Source: Limonium bicolor (lineage: Eukaryota; Streptophyta; Magnoliopsida; Caryophyllales; Plumbaginaceae). From it: a stretch of 64,000 bases of DNA. The stretch lies in the NCBI GenBank assembly GCA_023374045.1, contig CM041777.1:84562300-84626299 (forward strand). Direction: 5' to 3'. Each line of letters opens with the position of its first letter. The stretch's first letter is position 1. The notes beneath the pieces were generated by a model. It was not told the DNA's origin, made no database searches, and worked only from the letters and a program-made list of their open reading frames with translations. The position numbers were made by a program, and so were the translations under genes. This document shows, piece by piece, positions 12,996 to 64,000 of the stretch.

Positions 12996-13403
12996 GGGAA
13001 AATTCACGATATACCCCTGTTTTCTGTCGTAATTCATAATATATCTCTGTGTTTTTCGTAATTCAACTTTAAACATGCTTAAATGTTGTCCAAAATTGAT
13101 GAAACTTTACATGGATGATGCTAAAGTGTTATATTTTATCCAATATCAAATATGAAGTTTTTTAAGCTCACATGTGACCTGTGGGACCCAATGAACATTA
13201 TGTCACATGTTCATTGGGTCCCACAGGTCACACGTGAGCTTAAAAAACTTCAAATTTGGAATTGGACCAAAATATAACACTTTAGCATCGTCCATGTAAA
13301 GTTTCATCAATTTTGGACAATATTTAAGCATGTTTAAAGTTGAATTACAAAAATCATAGGGGTCTATTGTGAATTACGAAAGAAAACTATCGTGAATTTT
13401 CCA
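12996..13403. mobile_element. Foldback MULE-type MITE, copy 1 (near-perfect ~200-bp arms)
   Basis: The left arm begins GGGAAAATTCACGATATACC and the right arm ends with its inverse. Almost the whole element is one inverted repeat: CATGCTTAAATGTTGTCCAAA, GTTTTTTAAGCTCAC and GGGACCCAATGAACAT occur on the left and inverted on the right, with only about 5-10 bp of loop near 13200. A second full copy lies at 62333-62744 and a half copy at 43896-44100. The terminal sequence is shared with the larger MULEs at 20322, 25020 and 32164. No clean target duplication is seen at this copy. Confidence 0.85.
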
Positions 13404-13433
13404 AAAAAAACTAAAAGATAAAAGATATGTCTT

Positions 13434-14734: not shown

Positions 14735-15110
14735 TCATATACAAAGTTCATCCGCCAACATCTGCTTGATGCAAAGTGGCGGTTCAGATAGGATATACAA
14801 TCCACGGTCTCCACGCATGTCTAGTTTAGCTAGCCTATCAGCAATTCCATTAGATTGTCTGGGGTTGTAGACTACTTTCAAGTCCCAACCAGGATATACA
14901 AGATTATTACACTCCTTAATAATAGGACCAATAGACAGATGGTCTGGACAGTGGTGAAAATAGTCGACAAGCAGCAACGAGTCTGTGCAAATGGTAACAT
15001 GCCGAAGCTTCTTCTCCAGTGCCAGTTCGATTGCTGTCCTTAGACCCATGGCTTCCGAATGCAGAGCGCTTCTGCTTCCAAAAGAACCGATGAATCCAGC
15101 AGTCCATGCT
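14735..15110 (-). pseudogene. LINE RNase H domain
   Basis: Minus-strand frame contains the plant LINE RNase H signature: GLRTAIELALEKKLRHVTIC (activity-site E region), TDSLLLVDYF (D) and NGIADRLAK (D), ending ADELCI before the short 3' UTR. The upstream part, with the first aspartate, is in another frame (about 15050-15180), so a frameshift is present. RNase H removes the RNA strand during target-primed reverse transcription. It sits at the extreme C-terminus of ORF2, as in other plant L1-type elements. Confidence 0.8.
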
Positions 15111-15274
15111 CCCTTATGATTTTGATAATGCCCCCAGCAGCACCATTCCCTGCATTGCCATCGAAAGCTCCATCAGTATTAATCATAAAATAACCTTCTC
15201 AGGAGGGATCCAACTTCTCCACTCCAGAGGATAACAATTACCATCCATTTGAGGGCTAGTCAACTGATTTGCTT

Positions 15275-43895: not shown

Positions 43896-44100
43896 GGAAA
43901 ATTCACGATATACCCTTGTTTTCTTTCGTAATTCACAATATACCCCTGTGATTTTCGTAATTCAACTTTAAACATGCTTAAATGTTGTCCAAAATTGATG
44001 AAATTTTACATGGACGATGCTAAATTGTTATATTTCGGTCCAATATCAAATTTGAAGTTTTTTAAGCTCACATGTGACCTGTGGGATCCAATGAATATGT
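43896..44100. mobile_element. Half copy (left arm) of the foldback MITE
   Basis: Matches the left arm of 12996-13403 and 62333-62744 from GGAAAATTCACGATATACCC to GGGATCCAATGAATATGT, then stops at the centre of symmetry. The right arm is absent. Confidence 0.85.
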
Positions 44101-45289: not shown

Positions 45290-45993
45290 ATATAGAAGTA
45301 AAGAGGAGGAAGAAGACAAGGATGGGTGAACATTTATATAGAAGTAAAGAGGAGGAAGAAGACAAGGCTGGAGCATGCGTGAAGAAATTAAGGAGTGCGG
45401 CGCCTGATATTGCTGATGGGGTAGATCGATATGTTTGTAGGCGCCGCAAATGAGGAAAAACAGCGAAGGCGGTGCAGATCTTCAATCGTGTGATTTCTGG
45501 ATTTGGCGTAGTCATTTTACACGTGTCCGGATTTGTGTCCGGACAGGGCTCATCAGGACGTGAGACGTCCGCGTAAGGACACAAATGTCCTAGCGAGATC
45601 TGTTCGTGTCCGAGTTTGAGTCCGCGTAAGGACACAATCTCTTGCTTCCTGTCCGCGTTTGCGTTCGCGTAAGGACACAATCTCTTGCTTCCTGTCCGCG
45701 TTTGCGTCCGTGTAAGGACACATGTATTTCGTCTCATCTTGTTCTGCAAACTTCGACAGGCTCTAGATTCTTCGTTTGAGCTCCGTTTTTAGATCTGTTT
45801 GCGCCTACGCGTTCGTCTTTTCATCTACTTTGCTCCTAGCTTGGTTTTCCTCATGTTTAACTAATAAATATGTAAGATAGCCAATAAAACATAAACTAAA
45901 GGAAACCTAACCAAAGTGGAGAAATGAGCAAGAAAAGTGATAATATAACATATGAAATATACCCATAAAACATGCTCATTTGGACACTTATCA
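45290..45993 (-). mobile_element. Truncated 3' LTR of the Athila-like element
   Basis: Begins (minus) TGATAAGTGTCCAAATGAGC at 45993 and matches the 5' LTR from 54768 down to about 54040, where it breaks. A 46-bp piece around the break (GATGGGTGAACATTTATATA...AAGACAAG) is duplicated in tandem at about 45278-45323 and 45324-45367. Confidence 0.9.
45530..45722. repeat. LTR minisatellite (GTCCGCGTAAGGACACAAT)
   Basis: Copies of TCCGCGTAAGGACACAATC and CTCTTGCTTCCTGTCCGCGTT; GTCC and GGAC make each unit partly self-complementary. The 5' LTR array (54236-54497) has one or two more units. Confidence 0.85.
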
Positions 45994-46010
45994 CACCCCC
46001 ACACATTACC
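45994..46010 (-). other. Polypurine tract of the Athila-like element
   Basis: Minus strand GGTAATGTGTGGGGGTG directly before the LTR, preceded by TTTTGCTTGAGGACAAGCAA. Confidence 0.75.
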
Positions 46011-47190
46011 TTTTGCTTGTCCTCAAGCAAAACCATGTACCCAAGAAAGTAGGGAATGCTCAATACTAACAAATATTATTATGAAGGGTAGGATAAGGAG
46101 GTGAACAATATGCGACTTAAACTTTTTGAGGAGTGTGAACCATCACCTACTGGTGGCATAGGTGTGCTCAGGGTAAAAACAAAATTTAGAGTTTCGGGGT
46201 ATGATCCGGAGTGCTTCAATGTTTCTCAGTTGGGTGACTTTGAGAACTTTTACCACGACCAACTTCTCTCAAGTATGGGCATTGAGGAGAAAACAAAAGG
46301 AAAATATTTATGCATTTGTTTCATTTCACTTGCATAAGAGATGAAGATAATATGTAGGCATTAAGCCTTTGTATTTAAGAACACTCAACTCTCATTTGTT
46401 GGTTACCAATGGTGTCTCGCAAGTCCCTTGTTTATTTTTTTTCTTTGGACAGAGAAGCACCCCTTAGCAATCCCTAAGAGAGAAGACAGAAAGAACCCCT
46501 GAGCAATAAAAATCCAACCATTGCAGATCATTTGGTCACACCACGTAAAAACGCTCCTCAAGAGCAATCATTAATCAATAATTTTGTACCATTTATCCCA
46601 CAATTCATAATAGTATTTGTTCATAAAGAGAACAACCTACATCAGCAGGGTCCATAATTTTAAATTTTGGACAAACGCAAGATAAGCAGAGAGATTAAAC
46701 ATTTTTAGCACAAAATATTTCACCGAAAAGGGCACTCCCCCATACTTAAATTGAACAGTGCCCTCATTGTTCACCAGAAAAAACAAGGGAAGGTTTCAGA
46801 AGACCTTTTCGGTAAGTAGATAAATAGAGAAAACACAAAGGTCACAAATAAACATTTGAGCACAGGAGCTGTCTACAGCAGAATTCAACATAGTAAAAGC
46901 AGAATTAAAGAAACTAGTACTCCCCTAAGATTGTTGTTGCTTGCGTTATAGGAGTTCCCCCACATTTGAGCTTCAACCTCAAGTAGCGCAACTTGGTTGT
47001 GGTGTAGACATGAAGTTGCACGGCATAAGACACTAGAAGCAACTATACTACAAACGGGGTTAAGAGTTTAGCAAAAACAAAATTTTAAAGAGAACCTGGA
47101 AATTAAAAGAAAATAAAAGCAAATGAAAGAAAATTTCATCCGGGTTGCCTCCCGGAAAGCTGCCCTTCTTTAACGTCTTGGCTAGACGCT
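46011..47190 (-). other. Non-coding region between pol and PPT of the Athila-like element
   Basis: In intact Athila elements an env-like ORF can lie here. I see no convincing minus-strand ORF. A 78-codon plus-strand frame at 46101-46337 is antisense to the element and unrecognised. Near 47120-47180 the minus strand carries GTCTAGCCAAGACGTTAAAG and CCGGGAGGCAACCCGG, a motif commonly found just after pol in this group. Confidence 0.6.
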
Positions 47191-47199
47191 TTGAAGCGT

Positions 47200-48349
47200 A
47201 CTCAAATCTGAGGATCTTGTAGAATTATTGCATGAGCATCAACTTTCTCGAGATTACCACCCTGGTAATGCTCCAGTCTTGACCCATTTACCATGAAAGT
47301 TTGTCCTTTAGAATCTGCCAACTCAACTGATCTGTATTGGGTGACCTTGGAGACAGTAAAGGGTCCAGCCTAATGGGATTTTAGTTTACCAGGGAACAGC
47401 TTCAACCTGGAATTATACAGTAGAACCAAATCTTCCATATGGAACTCCCGTTTAAGGATCATCTTCTCATGCCACCTCTTGGTTTTCTCTTTGTAATATG
47501 GTTATTTTTGTAGGCATCCTCTCGAAATTCTTCTAACTCGGTAAGCTGAAATTTCTGTTTGTCACCTGCTCTCAGTAGATCAAAGTTTAGTGCTTTCACG
47601 GCCCAGAATGATTTGTGCACGAGCTCGACCGGTAAATGACAAGCTTTTCCGAAGACCAATCGATATGGGGACATTCCGATGAGTGTCTTGTAGGCTGTTC
47701 TATATGCCCAGAGTGCATCATCCAGCTTCAGGGACCAGTCTTTTCTTGAAGAATTAACTGTCTTTTGCAGGATCCACTTCAATTCTCGGTTAGAGACCTC
47801 AGCCTGGCCGTTTGTTTGAGGGTGATAAGATAAGGCTACCTTGTGTCTTACCCCGTATTTTGTCATTAAGGCTGTGAACTGCTTATTACAGAAGTGGGAT
47901 CCTCCATCACTGATTATAACACGTGGGACTCCGAACCTTGTAAATATGTTCTTTTTCAAGAACTTAAGCACTACCTTTGCATCATTTGTGGGAGAGGTGA
48001 TAGCTTCCACCCACTTAGTCACATAGTCGACTGCTACCAAGATGAAGAGGTTTGAGCAAGATGAAGGAAAGGGTCCCATGAAGTCAATGCCCCACACGTC
48101 GAACGGTTCTACCTCAAGTATAATGTTGAGAGGCATCTCATGCTTTCTAGAGGTGTTCCCAAGTCTTTGGAACTCGTCGCAGGAAGCTACAAAGGAATGA
48201 CAGTCTTTATGCAGGGTTTTCCAGAAGAAACCCGATTGAAGTACCTTAGCTGCTGTTCGTGCTGGCCCATGATGTCCTCCGGCTTCAAGAGAGTGACAAT
48301 GTTGTAGAATGCTTTGGATTTCGTTTCGAGGCACACATCTTCTCACCAT
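47200..48349 (-). pseudogene. Athila-like integrase
   Basis: From 48349 (minus): the zinc-binding part ([17 protein letters not shown], then SCDEFQ, where the final cysteine of CxxC has become phenylalanine), catalytic core with D in [10 protein letters not shown] in ISDGGSHF and E in [10 protein letters not shown], then [20 protein letters not shown]. The frame breaks near 47480, after which the C-terminal part continues in another frame to about 47200 ([26 protein letters not shown]). Integrase inserts the cDNA. The core residues are present but the frameshift and stops disable it. Confidence 0.9.
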
Positions 48350-48434
48350 CCCTCGTCTGCACAGGCCTTAAAAAGGATAGGGTCCTCCTAGTAGTAATGT
48401 TTTACATCTAAAAAGAACTTCTTCTGTTGATAGG

Positions 48435-49240
48435 TTAGCCGTGTGGTATTACTCCTCGTGCTAGGTAGTTGGCCATGTCAGCGTACCATGGATCACCAGT
48501 GTCGCCAATCATAAAAATGCACTCATCTGGGAAGAATTCATTGATGGATGTGCCATCACTTGGTGCCTCTATGCGAGATAGGTGGTCTGCTACTACATTT
48601 TGTACTCCTGGCTTGTCTCTGATTTCAATCTCAAATTCTTGTAGTAGGAGTATCCACCGGAGGAGTCGAGGTTTGACATCTTCTTTGGCAAATAGATACT
48701 TCAGAGCAGAGTGATCGGTGTGAATTATTACTTTGCTTCCCAAGAGATATGATCGGAATTTATCCAGAGCAAAGACTACTGCTAGAAGTTCCTTCTCAGT
48801 AGTTGCATAATTCTTCTGAGCATCATTGAGGGTTCTACTTGCATAGTAGATGGTTCTCAAGATCTTCTCCTTCTTTTGACATAAGCTTCCCCCCACTGCA
48901 TAGTCGCTGGCGTCGCACATATTTCGAATGGTAGGCTCCAGTCTGGTGATATCACGATGGGGGCGGAGATGAGGCAATCTTTCAGTGTGTTGAAGGCTTG
49001 TAGGCATTTGTCAGTGAAATTGAACTTGACGTCTTTAGCTAGGAGATCACATAGAGGCTTCGAAATTTTGGAAAAATCCTTGATAAACCTTCTATAGAAC
49101 CTAGCATGGCCAAGGAAGCTTTTGATGTCTTTCACCGTCGTAGGTGGTGGTAATTTTTCAATGACCTCGACCTTGGCTTTGTCAACTTCAATGCCTTTCG
49201 AAGATATTTTGTGCCCAAGAACTATTCCTTCTTTAACCAT
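48435..49240 (-). pseudogene. RNase H and RT connection domain of the Athila-like element
   Basis: 48857-49240 reads VLGHKISSKGIEVDKAKVEV, SFLGHARFYRRFIKDFSKI (RT thumb/connection). 48435-49007, in another frame, has [46 protein letters not shown] and VADHLSRIE: the D-E-D-D pattern of Ty3 RNase H. A frameshift near 48900-49000 lies between the two. It degrades the RNA template during cDNA synthesis. Confidence 0.9.
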
Positions 49241-50374
49241 GAAATGACATTTTCCCAGTTAAGCACAAGGTTTGTTTCTTCACACTGGGCAAGGATGGCG
49301 TCCAGATTGTTTAAACATGATTCGAATGTGAGACCGAAGACAGAGAAGTCGTCCATGAAGACCTCGATGCTCTTCTCAAGATAGTCGCTGAAGATTGACA
49401 TCATGCATCTTTGAAATGTGGCTGGGGCATTGCATAGACCAAAAGATCCGATTATATGCAAATGTCCCATATGGGCATGTGAATGTGGTCTTTTCTTGGT
49501 CTTCTAAAACAATGGGTATTTGAAAATATCCTAAATAGCCATCCAGGAAGTAGTAGTAATCTTGCCCAGCCAACCTCTCCAGCATCTGATCAATGAAGGG
49601 CAAAGGGAAGTGGTCCTTCCGCGTGGCGCTGTTTAGTTTCCTATAGTCAATGCAGACTCTCCAACCCGTCGTGGTTCTCTGGGGGATTAAATCACCCTTG
49701 TCGTTGGGGACCACAGTGAGACCTCCTTTTTTTGGGACAACTTGAATGGGGCTCACCCATTTACTGTCAGAGATGGAGTAGATGATTCCAGCGTCAAGCA
49801 GTTTAAGCACCTCTTTCTTTACCACGTCTTTCATATTGGGATTCAGCCTTCTCTGTGGTTGGACTAATGGCTTATAGGTATCTTCCATGTATATGTGATG
49901 TGTGCAGAAATGGGGGTTGATACCTTTGATATCCGAGATGGACCAGCCTATCGCCTTCTTATGGTTCTGAAGGATCTTTACAAGACATTCCTCCTGTGTA
50001 CTTGTTAGGGATGAAGAAATAATAACAGGTAGAGTACAAAGATCAGAAAGATAGACATACTTCAGGTGTGAAGGTAATGGTTTCATTTCTATGAGAGGGG
50101 GTTGTTCAATTGATGGTGGTATCTTTTGAGTAGAATGCTCTAATGGTTCTGGTGGTGGGTAGCGTGGTTTAGTATATGATTTTCTTTTATCCAGAGCTGC
50201 TACCATTTCAATTATGTCAGGATGTATTGGTTGGTTATCATAGGATTCTACTAAAGCATTTTCAAGAGCATCATTACGAATAATAGTAGAGGAATTATCA
50301 TGCACAATAGAGCCGACGATGTCTATGGAAAAGGTGTCTTCTATATGAGTGGGTTTCTTTATGACTTTGGACAT
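49222..50374 (-). pseudogene. Reverse transcriptase of the Athila-like element
   Basis: 49376-50374: N-terminal linker, then DAGIIYSISDSKWVSPIQVV, WRVCIDYRKLNSATRKDHFP, FLDGYLGYFQI (first catalytic aspartate region). After a frame change, 49222-49470: GLCNAPATFQRCMMSIF and EVFMDDFSVFG, the FMDD catalytic box. The polymerase motifs are conserved but split by a frameshift near 49400-49470. Confidence 0.93.
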
Positions 50375-50403
50375 GTCGTATTCTAAAGTTTTGTTATGTA
50401 GTC

Positions 50404-50892
50404 TTAAAATGATTTTTCCTTTTCAACGTCGATTAATGCTCTAGCAGTTCTCATGAAAGGTCGTCCTAAGATTAAGGGCACCCTAGTGTCTTCTTCCATG
50501 TCAATCACAATAAAATCAGTGGGGAACACAAAAGTTCCTACAGTAACAATCAAGTCTTCTATTATCCCTTTCGGGAATACTAAAGACCTATCTGCTAATT
50601 GTAATTGCATAGAAGTAGGCATGCATTCACCAATCTTAAGTTTGTTGAAAGTTGAGAGTGGCATTAAATTGATACTAGCTCCTAGGTCACATATCCCACC
50701 ACCACAATCAACATTATCAATGGAACATGGAATAATTGGCAAACCTGGGTCTCCAAGTTTTGGAGGGAGGTTCTTTAGAAGCACTGCTGACACTTCCTGC
50801 CTGCGTAAGGTGCACAGTTTCCACTTCCTGCAACGATCTTTTGTTTGTGTGATATCCTTCTTGAACTTTGCATATATCGGCATTTGTTTCAA
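50404..50892 (-). pseudogene. Aspartic protease region of the Athila-like element
   Basis: Minus strand: VLLKNLPPKLGDPGLPIIPC, then ICDLGASINLMPLSTFNKL, the DLGA active-site variant usual in Athila, and PLILGRPFMRTARALIDVE, the second conserved ILGRPF-type segment. It lies between gag (51103 and up) and RT, in the expected order. Confidence 0.9.
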
Positions 50893-51102
50893 AGCATCTG
50901 CAAAAGGAATATTAATCGTTAGTTTCTTGAAATAGGTTAGAAACTTTCCAAACTGTTCATCTAAAATTTTCTTTTCTTATTCTGTTTGGAAACGAAGTGG
51001 GGGAAAGAATCTTAGTTAGAGAGGAAGGGTAGATTCAGGAGGCTCCTTCTCCTTGGAAATATAGTTCGGAGGAGGAGGGGCTTCTTCAGCATCTTCTTGT
51101 TC

Positions 51103-52690
51103 TTATTCTAGATCTTCTTGAGGTTTGTGAGCTTGCTGTTCTTGATTATCTAATTCATCTCGGGGAAGGGATGAGTTGAGCGGCCTCCCACTTCTCAAAG
51201 TCACTGCCTTGGCATGTTCTCTTGGATTTGGATTTGGCTGACTAGGGAAGGTGCCAGATGGCCTTTGTGCAAGCTGCTGGCTGATTTGCTCCAGCTGTTG
51301 GTTGGTTTGTTGTATCTGGGCTTCGACCCTCCTATTAGTGGCTTCTTGATCCACGAGTCTTGTTTGGGTTGAAGTCACGAATCCCTTCATTAGGTTTCTG
51401 AATTCCTCATTTGGATCAGCAGAGGATGAGGATGGTTGTTGTTGTTGGTGAAAACCTGGAGGGGCTCCTTGTGCTCTATAACCCATATTAGAGTTTGGTT
51501 GGGGTCTATTTCCCTGATAGGTATTGGAACTGTTGTTCTGCCCCCCTTGGTTTTGATCGTTGTTTTTCCATGAGAAATTCGGGTGATTTCTCAATGGGTA
51601 GTTGTTGTTGATGTTGTTGTTGTAGGAATTACCGGGGCGGTTTCCTATGAAGTGTACTTCTTCGTACTCGCTTTTACCTCAAGCATTGATGGGTTTCATG
51701 AGGACCGGCGCATATGGCACATCCTTCCGTAGATGAACCTGAAGGTGCGGAAGCTATTGTCTTTACGATTTCGTTTTGAGATGTTGTTAGCTTCTCCACC
51801 ATCTTTGCAAGGGACGAGGTCTGGGATGATAAATGATCTGTAGGCTCAATGTGGAGTAGGCCTGCTGCTCGTGGCATTCTTCCTTTGGATCTCATCCACT
51901 GTCTTGTATTGCTCGTCATGGTTTCTAGAAGGTTCATCCCTTCTTGAGGAGATTTCATCATGAAACTTCCTCTTGCAGAGGAATTTACGAGTAGTCGGTT
52001 CCCATCATCTAGGTCATTGAAGAATGACAAGCAAAGGGATTGATCGTCAGGACCATGGTGGGAACACTTCATCAGCATATCTTTGAATCTGTCCCATGCG
52101 TCGTACAACGTTTCTCCCGGCTCCTGACAGAATGTGTTGATTTCTCCGATCAATTGCCTTGTTCTACTGGTTGGGTAGTATTTAGCAGAGAACTTCTGGG
52201 CCATTTGCAGCCATGTGTGGATTGATCGGGAAGGAAGACTTCGGTACCACCTGTTTGCTGAATCTGACAACGAGTGAGGAAATAGTTGAAGACGGATTCT
52301 TTCTTTGACGGTGCTGGTTTGACCAAAGGAATTACAGAAGTCTAGGAAGAGACTTAAATGATTCGGGGCTTCATCTGGATTTGCTCCACTAAACTTGCCT
52401 AAATCCTGGACAGCGGTGATGTAGTGGGTTTTGAAAGCCTATCGTCCGGTTTCTTGCGGTGTTAGTTCGGGGAGAACTATGGCTGATGCCCTTCCTTCAG
52501 TATCTGGTTGGTGGTAATCAGAGAGGGCACGGTGTTGTGGTTGATTTTCGTGGTCCATTTCATTTATGACTTGGTTATCACCCATGTCTTGATTTCTCTG
52601 GTTTCTTCGTGCTTGTAGTAGAGTGCACTCGGGTTCGGGTCTCGGACTGATTGGTGGAGAACCTCGGGTTCGAGTGTTTTGCATGCACAA
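51103..52690 (-). pseudogene. gag of the Athila-like element
   Basis: Minus strand from 52690: an N-terminal RPEPECTLL piece with an in-frame stop near 52440, then a retrotransposon gag domain (WYRSLPSRSIHTW, FSAKYYPTSRTRQLIGEINT, ETLYDAWDRFKDML) at 51674-52270 ending at CAICAGPHETHQC (a zinc-knuckle-like CxxC...H...C). 51103-51594 is a glutamine/asparagine/proline-rich tail. At least two stops break the frame. Confidence 0.9.
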
Positions 52691-52830
52691 AAGATAATTT
52701 GATTTGTGAGGAATTGCAAAATTAACAGTAAATAGATAAATAAAAGCAGAAATATTTAAATAGGCTGATAAACTTTAATTAAACAAAAATTAAAGTACCG
52801 AAAACTGGGGGAAATTGATGGAATCAATCT

Positions 52831-52847
52831 CCCCGGCAACGGCGCCA
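52831..52847 (-). other. Primer-binding site (tRNA-Asp) of the Athila-like element
   Basis: Minus strand TGGCGCCGTTGCCGGGG, complementary to the 3' end of plant tRNA-Asp, six bases after the LTR end. Confidence 0.9.
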
Positions 52848-52853
52848 AAAACT

Positions 52854-54768
52854 TGTTGAGCAAAATCTACACATTATTATATATAGATTTATAGCAAACT
52901 AATAGGCAAGTGCACCTAGTCGTAGTAGTGTAACAAGTGTCGTATCCTCAGGGAAATTGTTCAATTTTCCTAGTTTCGGTATTTAATAAACAGTAAATAA
53001 AAGGGGGTTTACCAGTGACAATCTTGGTGTTTTTGGGTTGGACAGATAAAAACAATAAAAAGCTTAAATAAAACAGCTGTGTATCAAATGGATGAAAAAT
53101 GTGCTAAGGAAGGTGAAATCGCCCAAATATACTTCAGACTTTAATTATAATCCTAATTTGCTATATTTGTCTGTTTAAGAATTTATCTTGTGGCCTCCCT
53201 AAAGCATAGGTAAGGTCAACTCTTAATTAATTCAATAGACTTTTTACTAGCAGAAAAAGTCTAAAATCATTAATTAGCATTAAGCAAAAATTCTTTTAAT
53301 AACAACGATGGATTTTATCAACTAATTAAGGAGATAATATCTAACGTTTGTCTCTCTTTGTGGTCTATTCTCAAATTTACAAAATCATTGAAATAAGAGA
53401 AACCGTAAATGCGTAAAAATGATAAGTTCTTAAGCATTTAATAATTTAGAGAGACAAAACAAATATTTATAAGCAAACTGGATATTATAAGTAAGTCTGA
53501 ATTATTTGGGGTCAAACACCCATCCTAAGCACAAATATAAGTTTATTCAGACATTGACAGAAATAAACATAGAGTAAAGATAGACATTAAAACAGAGTAA
53601 AGTTCAAGGAAAGAAAGAACTCTATTTTAGGGAGAGTTGTTTCGCTTCTGGGCTTGTCTTCGTGATTATGCCGACCTCAAAACGATGATAGATAGGTAGA
53701 ACGAAGAAAAAGAACAAAACAGGTACAAGTTGGTCCTGTCCGGGTGGGGCCACGCGGGCACAAACGCGAACACAAACTCGGACATCTCCTCTCCGCGTGG
53801 GGGCTGTGCGGACACAAACGTGGACACCAACACGGACACGGCCTGGTTTTGTCAGATCGTCTTCTTCGTCTTGTTTTCTGAAAAATGGAAGAGTTAGGCT
53901 TATTTGATGATGGGAAATGATGGAAATGAAGTGGAGATGTGGATGTATGGATGGAGAATGGAATTTGGATGGAGTGAGAGTGAATTTTGGTGAGCGTTGA
54001 GTTGTGATCGATTCTGTGTTTTGATGAAGAGTGAGCGTGGGTTTATATAGAAGTAAAGAGGAGGAAGAAGACAAGGCTGGAGCATGCGTGAAGAAATTAA
54101 GGAGTGCGACGCCTGATATTGCTGATGGGGTAGATCGATATGTTTGTAGGCGCCGCAAATGAGGAAAAACAGCGAAGGCGGTGCAGATCTTCAATCGCGT
54201 GATTTCTGGATTCGGCGCAGTCATTTTACACGTGTCCGGATTTGTGTCCGGACAGGGCTCATCAGGACGTGAGATGTCCGCGTTTCTGTCCGCGTAAGGA
54301 CACAAATGTCCTAGCGAGATCTGTTCGTGTCCGAGTTTCTATCCGCGTAAGGACACAAATGTCCTAGCGAGATCTGTTCGTGTCCGAGTTTGAGTCCGCG
54401 TAAGGACACAATCTCTTGCTTCTTGTCCGTGTTTGCGTCCACGTAAGGACACAATCTCTTGCTTCCTGTCCGCGTTTGCGTCCGCGTAAGGACACATGTA
54501 TTTCGTCTCATCTTGTTCTGTAAACTTCGACAGGCTCCAGATTCTTCGTTTGAGCTCCGTTTTTAGATCCGTTTACGCCTACGCGTTCGTCTTTTTGTCT
54601 ACTTTGCTTCTATCTTGGTTTTCCTCATGTTTAACCAATAAATATGTAGGATAGCCAATAAAACATAAACTAGAGGAAAACTAACCAAAGTGGAGAAATG
54701 AGCAAGAAAAGTGCTAATATAACATATGAAATATACCCATAAAACAATGCTCATTTGGACACTTATCA
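52854..54768 (-). mobile_element. 5' LTR of the Athila-like element (1.9 kb)
   Basis: TG at 54768 (minus TGATAAGTGTCC) and CA at 52854 (CTCAACA). It contains the GTCCGCG minisatellite at 54236-54497. Long open frames here (for example 53622-54305 minus) are a product of the repeat and not genes. Confidence 0.9.
54236..54497. repeat. LTR minisatellite (GTCCGCGTAAGGACACAAATG), 5' copy
   Basis: Partly duplicated blocks with CGAGATCTGTTCGTGTCCGAG and TCCGCGTAAGGACAC. More units than in the 3' LTR, so the repeat number changed after or during insertion. Confidence 0.85.
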
Positions 54769-54984
54769 GGGAGCGGGACCAGGAAGTCTGGCAGCTCATC
54801 TACGTCTAGCCCCAACCTCTTCGCAAATGATGGCGAAATAAAGGTATGAGAGGCGCTGGAGTCAAACAATACAGAGGCATCAATGCCATTTACCGGGAAG
54901 GTACCTGTTAGGATGGTGCCACTCTTACCGGCTTGTGCTTTAGTGAGGATACCCAGGTTACCTTCGGTACTGAGTCCGCAACCT
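54769..54984 (-). pseudogene. Protease of the Tekay-like element, cut by the Athila-like element
   Basis: Minus strand: GILTKAQAGKSGTILTGTF, then VNGIDASVLFDSSASHTFIS and FAKRLGLDVDELPDF. The active site, normally D-S-G-A, reads D-S-S-A, a likely inactivating glycine-to-serine change. The frame ends at 54769 where the Athila LTR begins. Confidence 0.85.
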
Positions 54985-55125
54985 AATTATTCATAAGCTT
55001 TATGAGTATCGATGGTATAACGCAAGTGTAATTTAATAACCAACACTGCTTTTATTGATAAACCATCCATCATACATATTGTGTCTCTAGTACACATTAC
55101 TAATGCATTACATGCCATTACAAGG

Positions 55126-55887
55126 TCAATACTTTATAAAGGTAAGGTTTAGGCGTCCTGGTTTCATGTGCGTGGCTTTGATTATTGTCGATGGTGCCGT
55201 ATTCAACATGATCTTTTTGATACCGTGATACAACATTCTCGACTTTCCACTCATGATTAAGACATCTCCTGACTTAAGTGCGATCTTCTCTACGAGGTCC
55301 ACACGCTTCTGCTCGCTATACAAAAATACCGCATCATCACCAATAGACCAAGACACTACGGGCACTCCTTGTTCAAGGGATTCCGTTGTCTCGTCCTTAT
55401 CTTGGTGTAAGCCAAGTCGTCATTCTTTCTCATAGAAGTTGACGATGCAAAGGTCTGCCTTAAGTGTAGGGACTGGATTCTCTTCCAGTTATTATGCAAT
55501 TTCCATGGCTTGTGTAATAACAGTCTGAAACTCTTTTGGTATCTCTGGTGGTGTTGCTCCGTCTTCCGCTCGTGTCTTCTGGTATGTCTTGGTATAAGGG
55601 TTCCAGTCCTTTCCCAAGCACATCATCTTTAGCTTCATCTTCGCTCCACCGGGGAATTCGGGGGTGTAAAATCCTCCTGGACCTGCTCCTCGATGGTTGC
55701 AACGTCGGATGATGGCAATTTGCGCTTCGGGTGTCAGGTATCCTTTTAATAAGATCATACCTGGTCGGATAACCTGACACTGCTCGTTGGTGATGTGGTA
55801 AATGGTGATGTCGGTATCTTTAAGGTTAGGGTTGTTTGATGGTATTGGATAGCAGATATCAAATTTTCCTAGGGTTGTAAGGTTCAT
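55126..55887 (-). pseudogene. AlkB-type 2OG-Fe(II) dioxygenase (ALKBH1-like) inside a retrotransposon
   Basis: 253 codons in one frame from ATG at 55887. The sequence follows plant ALKBH1-like proteins: FDICYPIP near residue 9, RPGMILLKGYLTPEAQIAII, GPGGFYTPEFPGGAKMKLKM (next to MCLGKDWNP), then ADLCIVNFY, GLHQDKDET (H161 and D163, iron ligands), VPVVSWSIGDDAVFLYSEQ, SGDVLIMSGKSRMLYHG (H221, third iron ligand) and PGRLNLTF (R245, 2-oxoglutarate ligand). The final arginine of the RxNxTxR motif is isoleucine (I251). Stops interrupt codons 132, 133 and 156. There are no introns. AlkB proteins remove methyl groups from DNA or RNA bases by oxidation. Between AlkB and protease lies an AT-rich stretch with an AATAAA-type signal near 55055, compatible with a captured processed transcript (inference). 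Confidence 0.85.
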
Positions 55888-57297
55888 AAGTTCTAGGTTT
55901 ACTAGCTCAATTCATGCTCAAATTCATACCTTGATTCTATTCATTCATGCATTCACTCAAACAGATAATTCAATACTTTAGACATGCTCTTCAAGGATTA
56001 AAGTTAATAGTTAGTACCTAGGCCGGACTTTGTACCGGTCCCATCACGGTCAATGATGTGCAAGGTTGGATGCCTCTACGGTGTGCCCTTCTGAGCACCT
56101 CGGGACCCCTGTCCCTGCGAGGTTTGTTGGGCCTGAGCATCGCCAATGCAATCTCCTTGCCTTCTCTCTGTTTGTAGCCCTGGTAGTTGCCCTTAGGCCT
56201 TGGGTTGGTAGGCATTCAGATACTCGGTGTCCTGTCTTCTGATGATTGAAGCATCAAATTTCTCTTCCTTGGCAATCTGTGTCGGGGTGATCTTGGTTGT
56301 ATTTTCTACAGACGTAGCTACGGCCATCGGAGTGGTTCTTACCATAACCGGAACCAGAACCTGAGGCTTTGAGCGTTAGCACATTCGGTGCAATAATGCT
56401 AATTATTAATTTCACACATGTACAAGTTTAAATTCAAAATCTTACCCTTGGGCGGGTGAGATCTCAGTGGTTTTGCAGCCACCGGTGCAGAGTAAGCAAA
56501 TTGTAACGGCTCAGTTTCTTTGCCCTTCTCAACATGGGCACTGCTCTCCCCGGGGGTGTTCTTTTGTGACTGCTGGAAGAACTTCCCCTTTCTCTTCTTC
56601 CAGTTCTTACCCTGATTCTACTCCTTTGAGCTGGTTTTCTTGTTGTTAGCCTTGCGCTTAAGCGCTTGCTCTTCATCCCTCAGTTGACATGTGATATCTA
56701 CACGAGATGCAGCATGATAGCACTCCTGAAGTTCTCAGGTATTAGATGGTGTTCCTTGCACAAATGGTAATAATCTATGTATTGACAATGGCAATAAGGG
56801 TTCAAACCAATGTTTACCTGAAGGGAGGTAAATCGGGTGTACCCCATGCCATACCGGAGGTGATGGCTCAAACCGCCATAGAAGTGATCGACCAAGACCT
56901 GGCCGGTGTACCTAAGGTCGGGCAGTAGTCATAGAATAGAGGTGAAGGTACGGTAGTATTCATCAACTGACATCTTCTCCGTCATCTTCAAGGCGTCGAG
57001 CTCTAGACACTTCTTTGTCTTGACGTGCTCTGGATAGTATTTTGATCGGAGAATAGCGGTGAAGGATTCCCAATTGAATGTAGGGTCATCAACATACTCA
57101 CCCTTTACTAGCTTCCACCAATCCATAGCATCATCCTTGAGGTAGTAGGCGGCTATCCTCACTCGAACTCCAGCAGGAGCCTCGAGAGTCTCGAAAGCCG
57201 TCTCCATCTCGGAGATATAGGCTTCAAGTTTGGCGGGGTCGCTCTCACCTCTAAAGCAGGGAGGTCGGAGATCTGCAACTGCCTTTACCCAATTCAC
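55888..57297 (-). pseudogene. gag of the Tekay-like element
   Basis: 56929-57297 (minus): DLRPPCFRGESDPAKLEAYI, ETLEAPAGVRVRIAAYYLKD, WESFTAILRSKYYPEHV and MSVDEYYRTFTSIL form a retrotransposon gag core. 56698-56895, in another frame, has a VDHFYGGLSHHLRYGM segment, and 56464-56676 a lysine/arginine-rich stretch ending APVAAKPLRSHPP (other frame). 56018-56215 carries NYQGYKQREGKEIALA. I see no clear CCHC knuckle, unlike most Tekay gags. Frameshifts and stops are frequent. 55888-56010 is AT-rich and looks non-coding, acting as a leader before the AlkB ATG. Confidence 0.8.
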
Positions 57298-57696
57298 GTC
57301 TCTGGGCAGTGGGGGTGGGAGTGGTCCAGCCTGAGTCTGCTGGTTCTACTGTGTCTGCTATGTAGCCGTCATTACTTGTGGTAGCCCTTGCGCTACCGTG
57401 GCAGCGACGATTTCTGCTATCGTCTACGTGCCCGGCTCCTCAGCCGACTCTCCACGGCCTTGGCCTCGACCACGACCTCTTCTTGATCTCTGAACAAGTA
57501 ACAATTTATATTAGGCACTATGACCACGAGGTCTTGAGTTTAAGCAACTGTATCGTCCTTTCAGACGTTAAAGGGTATCCATTGTCATTAACGGTCATTC
57601 ATAGTTAGGTTCCTACTCCTCCGTCGGAAGACGGGTTGTAATCCTAACTCAGTAATCCCTATGCTCGGCAATTCCTAGACATCAGAGCGTTACTAC

Positions 57697-57708
57697 GCTC
57701 TAATACCA
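57697..57708 (-). other. Primer-binding site of the Tekay-like element (tRNA-iMet)
   Basis: Minus TGGTATTAGAGC, one mismatch from the initiator tRNA-Met complement TGGTATCAGAGC, five bases from the LTR end. Confidence 0.8.
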
Positions 57709-57713
57709 CTTTT

Positions 57714-60700
57714 TGTAACACCCATACCGCTAATACTCTAAGTATTGTCTAATCGTCTCGGTCACCTTACTACTCGCAGCGGAAATACAAGTACAAACGG
57801 TGGGTGATCCAATGTCGTCAGTCGCCCATATGACTAACAAGGCCTACTCTACATACAATAACGGTCTGATAAATAGAAATATACCAAGCTTTCATAAACA
57901 CCTTCCAATGCATTCACATCATTTACTTACAACATTCGATTACCGAGTATACAAAGATGATAATCCGAATACATCCTTCTTGCAAGTCTAGACATAACTA
58001 TGAGTTTATCAACCTACTCATTCTACCAAGTTCACAATTCCAAAATATTCAAAAAGGGTGTACCACATGGTACACCAGCTACTCAAAAAGGTAATAAGCC
58101 GTGTACAACTCAGTACACCATTCTCAATCTACTAACTACACAAAAGTATTCATCTTGGTCTCAACACGATCATCATCCTTCACGAGTACCCGGAAGAAAT
58201 AAAAACAGTGCCCCAAGGGGCTCAGCAAATAGCTGGCATGGAATTCGCATACCCCGCGTGCTAACGGGGGTACGCCGACTACTTTGTCGAATACATGAGG
58301 TTCATTTTATACATGCATACATGCTATTTCATACAACATTATAATCATACAAGCACATACATACAAGAGTACCGTACATACGATGGAAGACAATCCACAA
58401 GTCAACCAAACATAATAATACACATCTCAAGTTCTTACTTCCTTCTTTGTTAGTCAGTTACCCATCCGGGTTAATCGGATGTTCTTTACTCTTTTACTCG
58501 GGACCATACGACTTACACTAGTCTTGGTCTTACTATACAATTACTTCCTTTCTTACATTATTTTCAAGTCAAGTCGGTGTGACCTCCGAGCAGAGACTAC
58601 ATCGCCTCACCACCAGGCTTTAGGTTGGCTTGCTTCCCCAGGTTGCTACCCATTTAAGTGGTTTGGACCATGAGAAAGATTAGGCCAGGAATCGGATCCA
58701 ACCTCTCGTGTCTCCACATCCTCACGTGTGGCCGAAACTATATCGGACTTCTTACATACTCCAATTTACAAATTTACTCAAAGTTAGAAGGGTTACATAG
58801 TTAGTGAGTTAGTGAGAATCATTTCACTATCACTAAGTCAAGGTTAGCACATTTGCACAACCACAATCAAACACTTCATCATCAATCATATCATTCATGA
58901 ATTATACAAACTTCAAAGTTCAAGCATAATTCAACAAGGTATAAACAGCACAAGTATAAGGAAGTGCAGTAAATCTGATTCGTGCATTTTATCTTGTATA
59001 GGTGATAGCATACAACACATAAGCACACAAATTAGAGTAACTTCGGTAGCATACAGGGCATGAGAAAATCATACCGTTCACCGTCGTACTCGAACTCCGA
59101 TTTCCTTTGAGGTTCAACTATTCGGGTCCTATAACATACACGGAATTATACGGTTAATTATCTATTATTAACCTAACCCGTTCCTTCATTAATGTTCCCG
59201 ATTTACAATTACTAACTCCTTACAACTAATACTTAATCACACAATCCATTTACTTGTCCTCATTCTTAAGTTTGATTTCTTAGGTTCTTATGTACATATT
59301 ATTTTCTTCTTACCATCATTACCCTCACAATGGTTTACTACTTAAGCCCTACATTTTTTTACTTGATCCGACCGACCTTACCCAGGGTCGGTCCCAAGGT
59401 CGGTCGAAGTCAGTAGGTTGGGGTTTCAAAAATTCAACTAAGGTCGATCAAAGTCAGAAGACTTTGTTATGAAAATTTTGACCCGACCGACCTTGCCAGG
59501 GTCGATCCTAAGGTCGGTCGAAGTAAGTAGACTTCTGGGTTGAAAATTACGACTCGACCGACCTTAATAAGGTCGGTCAAAGTCAGTAGACTCCCGGGTG
59601 TGAAATTTCTAGCTCGACCGACCTTCCCAGGGTCGGTCCTAAGGTCGGTTGGAGCCAGTACTACTCATTTTGACTTTATTTCAACTCCTTTCTTCTACCC
59701 ATTTCTTCCCTAATCTTTTCCAAAGCATTCTAAACATGTTTAACTCCAATTCTACACTTTAAACCTTCCTAAACCATCTACTAACTCAATTACTCAAGTT
59801 TTGGCTAAATTACACAATTCTTCCACTCTTAATCTTCCTTCTTAAGTTCTTGCTACATATTTTGTTTCCTTTCTCTTCACTAACTTAATGGTTCTTCCAC
59901 TAATGCCTTAGTAGTGTTCATGGCATTGTTTTCACCTCACATGCTTACTCCATTACCTAACTCTCCCAATTTATTTTCCAAAGTGGTTAACTACTCACAT
60001 TAAACCTAAAACACACCTAGTTAGTCCTAGGTTATTTCTTTCCTTAAAACAATTAAGTCTTCTAGTTTCCTAGGAAAATTTTGACAGAGTTTCCCCTAGA
60101 ATTTTAACATTGCCCACACACAATTCAGCTCACCAAACTAATCCCAATATCCACATCAATTCAAGCACTAATAACACATTAAAATCCTGCACGTATACAC
60201 TTATTCAACTAGGCTCCAAGGCATTTTTTTTCAATGATGTAAACCAACCTAAATAATCCATTTCTTTCATACCACTGCAGTAGCATTATACAATACTAAA
60301 ACAATGTAAATATTTCACACTACAAGGCATTAAAATTTGTTCAAGGTAAGCTCTTACCTTAGTGTTTTTAGTTTTCTTTTCTTTCCTTTCTTTCTTCTTT
60401 CTTCCTTCTTCTTTCCTCTCTTCTTCCTTGTTCTCCCTTACAACCGGTCCAATGGGGTTAACTCCCCAACGCTACAGCCATGCCCAAGACAACAATACTA
60501 CTTAATAACTAGCTCTCAAATTAACCTAGAATGTAGAGCATGTTTAAGGCTTTAAAAGGGCATTACCTTGCCACTTCTAAGTGAAGCTTTGGACAGTAAA
60601 ACAACAAGGCTCGGCTCCTATCCTGGACACCAAAGAAAACGGCTGGACAAGGCGCAATAAGGGGCTAAAAATCTGGAAAAAATCTTTTTGAAGAAGATGA

Positions 60701-61543
60701 GCTAGAAAAGTGAGTTTTAAGGTTCCTTTCTTACCTTAAAACAACTAGAATATGATTTGGCTTCAAATGGTATCCTTTAGTCTTCAAATGGAGCTCTAGC
60801 CATGGGAATGAAGTTCAAGCTTTTGGATTGTTGAAGGGTGGAAAATGATGCCCAAAGACAGAGGAGTTCAATGGTGCAATTTTTATAGCATTTGGACTTG
60901 ATTTTGGCTTTCAAAATGGAAGGAGAATGCGAGGGCTGGTAAGGAGTTTGCAAATTGCCATGGATGGCTGAGAAAGGAGAAGGAAGTTCTGATGGGGAAG
61001 AAAAGACGTGAGAGAGGGAATGAGAGTAGGAGAGAGAGAGACTCAAATTTGCTTTTTACTTTTTCCTCTTTATGTGTTTTGTCTTCTAGTGACTAATAAG
61101 AAATGAAGAGGGTGTGAGAGAGGGGCTGGGCGTCTCACACACACACACAATGGAAAATATGATTTTTATTTGTAAATGGGGGAGGTATTTTGCTCTTATT
61201 ACAGTTTACACCCCACAAGTTCTCGTTTTTGCACTATTCACTCACCGGAACCCGTTTTCCGGAATTTTCTCGTTTAATTAATTTTAATGGCTCTAAACCT
61301 TCACTAATGTTTAGTTATAGATATTTAATTGACTATAATTATTACGGGTCTATTTAACCCACTTAAAGTCACGTTTTCCCGGTTTCCTCGAAAAACGTGC
61401 TTTAAGGTTTGTTTTTGCTTTTAACCCGTTTTACAAATCTGTTTTCTTTGGGAATTGTTCCCACATGTTTATTTAGGCATAATTAAGCTTTTAAAATCTT
61501 CATTAGTCTAAGTAATCACTGTTTTAAAGTTCGGGGTATTTCA
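57714..61543 (-). mobile_element. 5' LTR of the Tekay-like element (3.8 kb)
   Basis: Ends (minus) GGGTGTTACA next to the primer site at 57714. The outer end is judged to be TGAAATACCCCGAAC at 61543 by analogy with 40244. Contains a GACCGACC minisatellite (59365-59660), a pyrimidine-rich tract (60364-60430) and a CA run (61137-61150). Confidence 0.65.
59365..59660. repeat. ~75-115 bp tandem repeat with CGACCGACCTT...AAGGTCGGTCG
   Basis: Units start at about 59367, 59482, 59556 and 59614, each pairing a CGACCGACCTT motif with an inverted AAGGTCGGTC and a following AAGTCAGTAGACTT-type spacer. Confidence 0.85.
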
Positions 61544-62127
61544 ACTGTGATTGTATCGGAGTTGACCGTTTTAATTATCGCTAATTATTTGATTATGAGT
61601 TAGGGTGCGACATTGGCCTCAATATGCTGCACCTCTTTCTATTGTATATATACTACAGTCTGAAGTTGATTTTCGGTGCTTAGTCGGTTTTAGAGTGGTC
61701 ACCACACTCGTGTGGAGCTAGGTCAACATGATCTTCCATCCTTCTTTATTGAGGAATTGATCTAGTTACCCCCATTTCGGTAAGGTTCTAGTTGTGTCTC
61801 TTTTATATGTTGTGTCTAGCTCATTGTGTAAGTGTGTGGTCTGGTTATATACTCAGGACATCTTGTTCGATTTCCTTAATCGTCTTGTCTATATATCTAC
61901 TGGTTTAGCTATGTTAAGTCTAATTAGCTTAATTTTGGGAAATTTTATGGGATACTTCTAGCTCTACTTAGACAAGACAATAGTAGTGTGACTCTAATGC
62001 TATTTAAGCAACTCCTCATTAGGATTGAGTTACAATTAGTGATCACCTTAATTAGTGTTTGTTTTGGGTAAAGATGGATGTAATTGTGGCTCCTTTCTTG
62101 TTGCCCTTAATCATGATGATTGAATGA
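61544..62127. other. Intergenic DNA, no gene seen
   Basis: Moderately AT-rich, without recognised coding or repeat features. Confidence 0.5.
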
Positions 62128-62233: not shown

Positions 62234-62892
62234 CTACCTCCGTCCCACTTTCATCTTCCTGTTTACTTTTTGGCACGCTTTTCCACTTCAATATTAAACA
62301 TATAAGATAAAATAATTTTATAAAATAAATTTGGGAAAATTCACGATATATCCCTGTTTTCTTTCGTAATTCACAATATACCTCTATGGTTTTTGTAATT
62401 CAACTTTAAACATGCTTAAATGTTGTCCAAAATTGATGAAACTTTACATGGACGATGCTAATGTGTTATATTTTGGTCCAATTCCAAATTTGAAGTTTTT
62501 TAAGCTCACGTGTGACCTGTGGGACCCAATGAACATGTGACATATTCATTGGGTCCCACAAGTCACATGTGAGCTTAAAAAACTTCATATTTGATATTGG
62601 ACAAAATATAACACTTTAGCATCGTCCATGTAAAGTTTCATCAATTTCGGACAACATTTAAGCATGTTTAAGGTTGAATTACAAAAAACACAGGGGTATA
62701 TTGTGAATTACAAAAGAAAACAAGGGTATATCGTGAATTTTCCCAATAAATTTTTATAACATATAGTTTTTTACATGAGGATTCCATTACAAAAATTAGA
62801 TTTGTAAAATTATATCATCTTATATGTTAAATATTGAAGTCAAACGACATGTTCAAATAGTAAACCAGACAGTCAATAAGGAACGGAGGGAG
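62234..62892. mobile_element. Stowaway-like MITE nested in the PIF-like MITE
   Basis: Ends CTACCTCCGTCCC and (inverted) CTCCCTCCGTTCC, flanked by TA at 62232-62233 and 62893-62894. Confidence 0.85.
62333..62744. mobile_element. Foldback MULE MITE, copy 2, with perfect 9-bp TSD
   Basis: AATAAATTT at 62324-62332 and 62745-62753 is an exact 9-bp duplication, the Mutator signature. The 412-bp element is an almost perfect inverted repeat with the same sequence as 12996-13403, and starts and ends GGGAAAATTCACGATATA. The centre is GGGACCCAATGAACATGTGAC. Confidence 0.93.
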
Positions 62893-63138
62893 TATAAAAC
62901 AACCATAAAACAACCAGACCAAAACAATCACAAAACAACCATGCCGAACGCGGAAGACTAATGTTTAACCATCTATAATTCTTTTCTTGTTTTTGAATAA
63001 CATTTTTTCTTCAAAAATAATAACCAAACCGTGGGTCCTACTGCCCAGACACGGGCCCCATGCAGCAACTGCTCAACCCCTCCTGCCATCGCCTTTCACG
63101 CTTCCGCCACAGTCCCTCCCCCCACCCCCCATGTTCTC

Positions 63139-63146
63139 TATAAAAT
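63139..63146 (+). promoter_or_regulatory. TATA box of the BAHD gene
   Basis: TATAAAAT about 104 bp upstream of the start codon, followed by a C-rich 5' leader (CACTCATTCCTTCTTCC). Transcription would start around 63170. The nested MITE block ends about 180 bp upstream. Confidence 0.75.
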
Positions 63147-63249
63147 CTCCCAACTCACTCATTCCTTCTTCCAACACAACTCAAAAAACCGCACTCTCCC
63201 CCAAACTTATCCGCCTCCAAAGGAACAAACACAAACAGAATCGCTGAAA

Positions 63250-64000
63250 ATGCCGTCAGCAGAATTTCCACCGCCTAATCCATGTGACTCTGTTTCCATC
63301 ATCTCCAAATGCACAATACTCCCATCCGGCCAATTCTCCGTCCAATCTGACTCTCTTCCGCTCTCCGTCTCTGACCTCCCCATGCTCACTTGCCAGTACA
63401 TCCAAAAGGGTTGTCTCTACTCAATTCCATTATCTTCCCTTTCCAATCGTGATTTCTTTCACCGCCTTATTCCCCATCTCAAACATTCGCTTTCCAAAGC
63501 CCTCTCTGCTTTCCCCGCCCTGGCTGGCCGCCTTTCAACTGACCAAGACACCAGTCGCATCAACCTCCTTCTCTCCCCAGCACGCGGCGTCACTTTTATC
63601 CATGCCGTTGCCTCAAATCTCCAACTCAAAGACGTCCTCCCCGCTCCTTCATCCTATATCTCCCCTGACATCCCTCCTGTCTTCCATCAATTCTTTGTCT
63701 TCGCCGATTCCCCACCTCTAAGCTATGAAGGTCACTCCCTCCCAATCACTTCCGTTCAGGTCACCGAGCTCACGGACGCTTTCTTCGTTGGTGTTACCGT
63801 CAACCATGCAGTTGTCGACGGGACCTCTCTCTGGAACTTCTTCAACTCGTTCGCGGAAATCTCTCGTTCTCTCCTTTTAAGCGGAACAAGAGAGGAGATC
63901 AAAGAGATCTCTCTTACTCACCCGCCGGCACACAGTCGAGACAACGTGTTTAAAACTAACGCTGTGCTCCGCTTCCCATCCGGAGGTCCTGCGCTCACTT
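63250..64000 (+). CDS. BAHD acyltransferase, partial (N-terminal 250 residues)
   Basis: ATG at 63250 opens an uninterrupted frame to the window edge. It follows the BAHD family: CTILPSGQFSV near the N-terminus, LPLSVSDLPMLTCQYIQKG (about residue 40), SLSKALSAFPALAGRLSTD, and the catalytic HxxxD box in VNHAVVDGTSLWNFFN (H186, D190). The DFGWG motif lies beyond the window. BAHD enzymes are soluble and move acyl groups from acyl-CoA to hydroxyl or amine acceptors. The SVSDLPMLTCQYIQKG and VNHAVVDGTSLWNFF segments resemble the uncharacterised acetyltransferase/EPS1-like subgroup; the substrate cannot be told. The frame is GC-richer than its surroundings, with no stops or intron so far. The start is supported by the TATA box and by alignment of the usual N-terminus. 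Confidence 0.93.
   Translation, partial: MPSAEFPPPNPCDSVSIISKCTILPSGQFSVQSDSLPLSVSDLPMLTCQYIQKGCLYSIPLSSLSNRDFFHRLIPHLKHSLSKALSAFPALAGRLSTDQDTSRINLLLSPARGVTFIHAVASNLQLKDVLPAPSSYISPDIPPVFHQFFVFADSPPLSYEGHSLPITSVQVTELTDAFFVGVTVNHAVVDGTSLWNFFNSFAEISRSLLLSGTREEIKEISLTHPPAHSRDNVFKTNAVLRFPSGGPALT

Follow-up and report, generated by a model that had tools for sequence, protein, structure and literature searches.

The outer element and its AlkB frame

The analysed stretch of the Limonium bicolor genome (64 kb, referred to below as the window) carries on its minus strand an old, dead and truncated member of a Ty3/Gypsy family, in which an AlkB-type dioxygenase frame stands between gag and protease (Table 1). 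The initial annotation described this frame as an intronless ALKBH1-like sequence of 253 codons interrupted by three nonsense codons, and this description proved correct: the frame matches Pfam family 2OG-FeII_Oxy_2 (PF13532) with E 2.4e-42 and 145.8 bits (cut-off 31.2), its stops fall at codons 132, 133 and 156, and 2,000 base shuffles of it contained 14.9 stops on average with a minimum of 3, the number observed. The residues H161, D163, H221 and R245 named there are all present; the second arginine of the R-x5-R motif is replaced (Ile251) and is kept in 10 of 11 aligned relatives, the eleventh of which (P0003) ends before that position. The ATG at 55887 is probably not the true AlkB start, since a conserved site that resembles a splice acceptor ends directly ahead of 55868.

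As had also been claimed, Pfam places gag upstream of AlkB (Retrotrans_gag E 3.8e-11, Ty3_capsid 2.6e-8) and protease downstream, all in one orientation. Presence and strand of both flanks thus stand, but neither flank is whole: gag is broken beyond 56932 and decayed onward to the predicted donor, and a nested element interrupts the protease at 54768, so that pol of the outer element is absent from the window. No second LTR of the outer element was found in the 64 kb. LTR ends were read by motif in 20 copies from the same genome, 13 of which also show the primer-site motif, and the LTR DNA of the window matches these copies in short stretches only, at 73-96% identity. The primer site we take to be of tRNA-Met type. 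The zinc knuckle of the window gag is degenerate, and a clean CCHC knuckle is present in five of the seven own-genome copies inspected.

Table 1. Features of the outer element and of the element nested in it, in window positions
Feature	Position	Strand	Basis and remarks
Outer-element 5′ LTR	57714..61612	-	End is motif GGGTGTTACA adjoining primer site; start TGTCGCACCC inferred
Primer binding site, tRNA-Met-like (TGGTATTAGAGCG)	57696..57708	-	Motif
gag, main part	56824..57345	-	Pfam Retrotrans_gag and Ty3_capsid; one stop in stretch
Degenerate gag zinc knuckle	56212..56253	-	Read from sequence
Predicted splice donor	56016..56018	-	Last exon base 56018, GT 56017-56016
Predicted AlkB splice acceptor	55868..55870	-	AG 55870-55869, first exon base 55868, in phase with gag donor
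AlkB frame, ALKBH1 type	55126..55887	-	Predicted exon 55868-55126; three stops; second Arg of R-x5-R missing
Predicted pol splice acceptor	54982..54984	-	AG 54984-54983, first exon base 54982, in phase with gag donor
Protease (retropepsin) start	54769..54986	-	Pfam RVP_2 E 5e-13 in 54986-54771; cut by nested element
Nested separate LTR element	45333..54768	-	Pfam matches to gag, protease, RT, RNase H and integrase; interrupts outer protease

Several other features of the window were recorded. The LTR copies of the nested element (45333-45993 and 54042-54768) are 87% identical, the 3′ copy being shortened. A 62-base LTR-end-like stretch at 45089-45150 matches the terminal part of the outer 5′ LTR (57713-57774) at 92% identity and may be what is left of a further insertion of this family. 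Three places (62315-62762, 12996-13409 and 43896-44100) share a repeat whose long inverted arms are 85% complementary; its occurrences are 90-94% alike. Remnants of other retroelements comprise a Copia-type gag at 38884-39336 on the minus strand (Retrotran_gag_2, E 6e-18) and an RVT_3 match at 14738-15172 on the same strand (E 5.9e-9). At 63001-63999 of the plus strand a gene start with a Pfam Transferase domain (E 1.6e-34), presumably BAHD-like, runs off the window.

Class and relatives of the element AlkB

PF13532 matches were obtained in the window, in the four related proteins P0001-P0004 and in the own-genome copy L009, and the HxD...H and R-x5-R pattern of the 2OG-Fe(II) dioxygenase fold is found in the family clade. 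The structure model of P0002 matches rice OsALKBH1 (5xeg, 5xoi); the 21 PDB sequences matched at E<=0.001 include rice ALKBH1, E. coli AlkB and mammalian ALKBH1, with ALKBH5 not among them, and the named plant matches are ALKBH1B-D-like. By these comparisons the element AlkB is nearer to ALKBH1 than to other AlkB classes and would be an enzyme of demethylase type with putative activity.

Among the 120 listed matches, P0001-P0004 are 57-69% identical and the nearest of the others, a host ALKBH1, is 53% identical. An NCBI, UniRef or nr source is given for none of the four and for 91 of the 116 other listed matches (hand count). A recent host pseudogene was considered as well and ruled out, the best listed match outside P0001-P0004 being only 53% identical. 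In the tree a long branch sets the element clade off from the sampled host ALKBH1 sequences; its position outside angiosperm ALKBH1 is weakly supported (83/45), and AU tests reject neither a eudicot grouping (p 0.459) nor a monocot one (p 0.366). Capture of a processed host transcript, as proposed in the initial annotation, would fit the intronless frame. A search for fused gag-AlkB-pol proteins passed 12 of 532 candidates at E 0.001, none of them with gag or pol domains; the search for gag relatives passed none of 1127 candidates, and viral and prokaryote contigs gave no confirmed relative. Changes in the window copy affect 4 of 64 conserved against 23 of 76 variable columns (P 0.0004), those in P0001 1 of 61 against 13 of 66. 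In P0003 the counts are 7 of 67 and 6 of 59; with changes not rarer in conserved columns no constraint is visible, and this protein may be decaying.

The family in the Limonium bicolor genome

The genome to which the window belongs (2.92 Gb) was searched with P0001 as AlkB query, and the best 150 of 50,036 first-look candidates were scored. These copies span residues 1 or 2 to 210 at 73-77% identity, and by hand count 137 of the 150 are stop-free, a fraction biased upward because the best copies were picked. Twenty of them were fetched with flanks (L009-L028, the AlkB-chosen set). Further elements of gag-AlkB-protease order, for which the initial annotation suggested looking, were indeed found here: gag precedes AlkB in 18 of 20 (it is displaced in L021 and only a fragment of it is seen in L023) and protease follows in 19, while RT is present in 19 (in place in 18) and integrase and the chromodomain region in 17 each. 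A second search used RT only; 150 of its 93,168 candidates were scored, each with an identity of 98% or more, and from these again 20 were fetched (the RT-chosen set). AlkB occupies its expected place in 19 of them, and a single open AlkB frame of at least 235 codons is found in 5 of 20. In the remaining copy, L043 (G000:C5:267450642-267451892), AlkB is missing; a deletion of ~2.3 kb removes most of gag, AlkB and protease there, and RT is kept. An AlkB 24-mer, searched with at most two mismatches, occurs at 2,272 + 2,251 = 4,523 sites (reversed control 0), to be counted as sites and not as intact genes; it is exact in 16 of the 20 AlkB-chosen and 19 of the 20 RT-chosen stretches.

Pfam recognizes RVP_2, RVT_1, RNase H, integrase, SH3_Tf2-1 and a sub-threshold chromodomain in the own-genome copies, and with its domain order, two LTRs and primer site the family is a Ty3/Gypsy LTR retrotransposon. 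Chromodomain PF00385 was matched at all three pol ends tested (E 2.1e-5, 7.2e-5 and 2e-4), with scores (21.6-24.8 bits) slightly under the Pfam gathering score of 25.1. These matches support assignment to the chromoviruses, though not to a particular clade such as the Tekay named in the initial annotation.

LTR tails were compared in 10 of the first 20 copies and pair up in nine, with K2P of 0 to 0.021 over 207-438 bases; L027 gave no LTR match. At a substitution rate of 1.3e-8 per site per year this divergence corresponds to insertions under about one million years old, and the lineage has multiplied recently in the genome of Limonium bicolor. The tail pairs of L009, L011, L013 and L022 differ by 3 to 7 gap positions and 0 to 2 substitutions; such gaps hint at indel errors of the assembly, so that frameshift counts may be inflated. 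AlkB sites ~10.4 kb apart on one strand (G000:C1:1430711-1462113 and C1:49203768-49245390) were also seen, a spacing that fits tandem arrays of LTR-sharing elements.

Selection on AlkB

Comparison of related copies by dN/dS, suggested in the initial annotation, points to purifying selection. Over pairs with dS of 0.02-0.5 or 0.02-0.6 the pooled AlkB ratio is 0.177 in the RT-chosen set (codon bootstrap 0.126-0.251; 157 pairs, 19 copies) and 0.130 in the AlkB-chosen set (169 pairs); in the latter, gag gives 0.152 (117 pairs), RT 0.095 (117) and integrase 0.090 (99). To judge from these ratios AlkB is under purifying selection and kept as a working gene, its constraint being about that of gag and weaker than that of RT and integrase. 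AlkB frames free of indels and stops number only 3 of 20 in the RT-chosen and 10 of 20 in the AlkB-chosen copies; the low count of three speaks against a working gene, but the genes that played no part in selecting the AlkB-chosen copies, gag (2 of 20), RT (4 of 20) and integrase (7 of 20), fare no better there. The median dS between copies (~0.29) greatly exceeds the divergence between the two LTRs of a single copy; most differences thus predate insertion and arose in replicating lineages. AlkB dS follows RT dS (Spearman 0.75; 121 pairs, 17 copies). Between subfamilies dS exceeds 1 (window against L009: dN 0.157, dS 1.32; L019 against L009: dN 0.173, dS 1.93), and AlkB is old in the lineage.

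The location shared by 19 of the 20 RT-chosen copies, the purifying selection and the 4,523 sites together identify AlkB as a retained gene of the element, the lineage trait supposed in the initial annotation; the condition named there as refuting it, confinement of all copies to one locus in host context, is excluded by the number of sites. Considering the window alone, whose frame is intronless and whose copy is broken, one might suppose that a processed host ALKBH1 transcript happened to land between the gag and protease of one element and does nothing there. In the family, common place and selection refute this, and it is highly improbable also with regard to the recurrence of the same place in subfamilies as divergent as those of the window and L019 and to the 53% identity of the nearest host ALKBH1 among the listed matches.

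AlkB in a predicted gag-pol intron

The gaps on both sides of AlkB contain stops in all three frames (three copies printed). When borders were located by motif, a GT donor was found at the gag end of 39 of 39 copies and an AG pol acceptor before protease in 37 of 39, the exceptions being L019, which is divergent there, and L020, which is interrupted. Joining of gag to pol across these borders is in phase 1 and leaves the frame open in 35 of 37 copies and likewise in the window, whose AlkB shares 71-75% of residues with the copies. The predicted intron measures 1002-1040 nt (18 copies), and its pol acceptor has no clear pyrimidine tract. In none of the 18 copies does the pol frame have a Met upstream of the junction, and the first Met past it lies beyond the region of the catalytic motif in 17 of 18 (exception L021). 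Thus AlkB probably sits in a phase-1 gag-pol intron, predicted from the conserved borders; neither this probable intron nor the probable splice start of AlkB had been noticed in the initial annotation. The spacer from the AlkB stop to the pol acceptor in L009-L028 is non-coding and includes a conserved stretch with AATAAA, similar in the window and in young copies and perhaps a processing signal.

The spliced gag-pol junction itself occurs in the genome at 12 sites, eight of them exact (reversed control 0); on C7 a distance of 9.2 kb separates two intron-less sites. In all eight fetched sites the gag match runs up to the junction and pol restarts at the predicted base, directly after the last ten gag bases. 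When equal stretches are compared, the closest pol is that of an intron-bearing copy in seven of eight (90.8-97.9%); for L063 it is that of L064. In gag, the closest copy to L061 and to L066 carries the intron, and L059 agrees with L022 at 97.4% over its final 344 bases, while L059, L060, L062, L063, L064 and L065 have in common a gag stretch not found in the intron-bearing sample; the intron-less copies may therefore be one lineage and not many splicing events. These sites are best explained as precise losses through reverse transcription of spliced RNA, which probably happened more than once, with a possible contribution of recombination or of one amplified lineage. The gag stretch common to six of eight would also suit an origin of these sites, as relics or by recombination, from an older form of the element that had no AlkB yet and received it later together with its flanks as a block. 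Such an order of events is nevertheless quite improbable, since the borders are GT-AG and in frame and the pol of seven of eight copies is so close to intron-bearing ones, whereas AlkB-bearing lineages differ among themselves by dS above 1.

The AlkB frame opens in most copies with an acceptor-like site, TACTACCAC[CT]TTAG, which a motif script located in 35 of 39; joined to the gag donor it keeps an open reading frame in 31 of 39, and L015 and L053 show the site with another following letter. Codons from this acceptor to the first common Met have pN/pS of 0.33 in 33 of the 39 copies (L011, L012, L013, L019, L024 and L025 being left out) against 0.16 in the remainder. A Gag-AlkB fusion would be the AlkB product that we prefer on these grounds. 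It competes with a reading in which AlkB is retained but made from its own start, an internal Met or a separate transcript, the gag-pol intron alone being real. The frame changes before the common Met in five copies (L011, L012, L013, L024, L025), and the orchid AlkB described below is a separate ORF (PMC9289625), both as an own start would allow; against it, the stretch before the Met is stop-free in 38 of 39 copies by codon alignment (L019 has a stop) with the pN/pS value given above, and a donor-phased acceptor-like site stands exactly where the stretch begins. We regard an own start as plausible, though not as the expected case.

Discussion

We infer the steps from the AlkB gene to its function as follows. 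A plant Ty3/Gypsy chromovirus lineage acquired an ALKBH1-type AlkB long ago and kept it working. Unspliced RNA would give Gag; a long splice removing AlkB would give Gag-Pol, which the genomic copies lacking exactly this intron back; and a short splice that also uses this gag donor but ends at the AlkB acceptor may give the Gag-AlkB fusion. The fusion could bring the demethylase into the particle, where it might clear methyl marks from element RNA or new cDNA and thereby aid replication or escape from host marking. As a whole, an old lineage with AlkB retained in a gag-pol intron, three products and particle-borne clearing of marks is the explanation towards which we lean with some confidence. 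Its most specific form, in which one donor and two competing acceptors yield Gag, Gag-AlkB and Gag-Pol and a packaged ALKBH1-type demethylase, acquired independently of the orchid one, clears the marks of the element's own RNA or cDNA, is put forward tentatively, at slightly under an even chance.

Alternatively, the targets of the enzyme could be host nucleic acids, either mRNA or 6mA in chromatin, and not those of the element. For the orchid enzyme, a possible action on cellular RNA is discussed (PMC9289625), and OsALKBH1 has been proposed as a 6mA DNA demethylase (PMC7758401); fusion to Gag would, however, point to the particle, and we hold a host target to be unlikely.

If the specific form set out above is true, plant Ty3/Gypsy elements captured AlkB at least twice and from different AlkB classes, and this double capture would suggest that elements are indeed under pressure from methyl marks on their RNA or cDNA and answer it with an own eraser. 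Because young copies are very many, AlkB is under selection as gag and pol are, and splicing probably operates, the identity of the mark and the action in the particle would become directly testable, and the genomic copies without the intron would preserve past splicing of a chromovirus as a fossil record.

Comparison with known systems

RNA-stage replicators with an AlkB of their own are known among plant RNA viruses of Alphaflexiviridae, Betaflexiviridae and Closteroviridae (cited in PMC9289625), to which the Limonium element is likened by description only, those being RNA viruses. Rice OsALKBH1 (5xeg, 5xoi) is a host gene, from which the element clade stands apart by its long branch. Introns are described as exceptions in plant LTR elements, as in Ogre and EVADE (PMC12786077, PMC6317226). 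Like the Ogre intron, the one predicted in Limonium would be removed from part of the transcripts of a plant Ty3/Gypsy element, giving the whole polyprotein (PMC6317226); but the Ogre intron is described there as lying between GAG-PROT and RT, with an average of 274 bp and no AlkB, whereas that of Limonium lies between gag and protease, is several times longer by the lengths given above and holds a gene.

The statement in the initial annotation that no LTR-retrotransposon family with AlkB was established does not hold, since a Ty3/Gypsy family of Phalaenopsis, Gypsy_Pa_2799, with a paALKBH5-like ORF2, was published in 2022 (PMC9289625). According to that report it is of ALKBH5 type with m6A demethylase activity in vitro, belongs to the Tat lineage as sister to Ogre, and among 121 angiosperm genomes an AlkB domain in Ty3/Gypsy was found only in Phalaenopsis (PMC9289625). 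Searches of open-licence PMC papers, preprints aside, listed neither a second AlkB family nor an AlkB chromovirus. The Limonium family resembles Gypsy_Pa_2799, as far as the latter is described, in being a highly multiplied plant Ty3/Gypsy with an AlkB-type 2OG-Fe(II) dioxygenase as retained extra gene, yet it falls outside that family: Gypsy_Pa_2799 is reported with a separate ORF2 beside a single Gag-Pol ORF and a tRNA-Arg primer, whereas the Limonium element has AlkB of ALKBH1 type between gag and protease in a predicted intron, a chromodomain-like end and a tRNA-Met-like primer. Compared with the orchid case, the ALKBH1 class, the chromovirus as host element and the probable position in a gag-pol intron look new here, and because of the other AlkB class, the chromovirus affiliation and the intron position the Limonium family most likely represents a second, independent acquisition of AlkB in plant Ty3/Gypsy elements.
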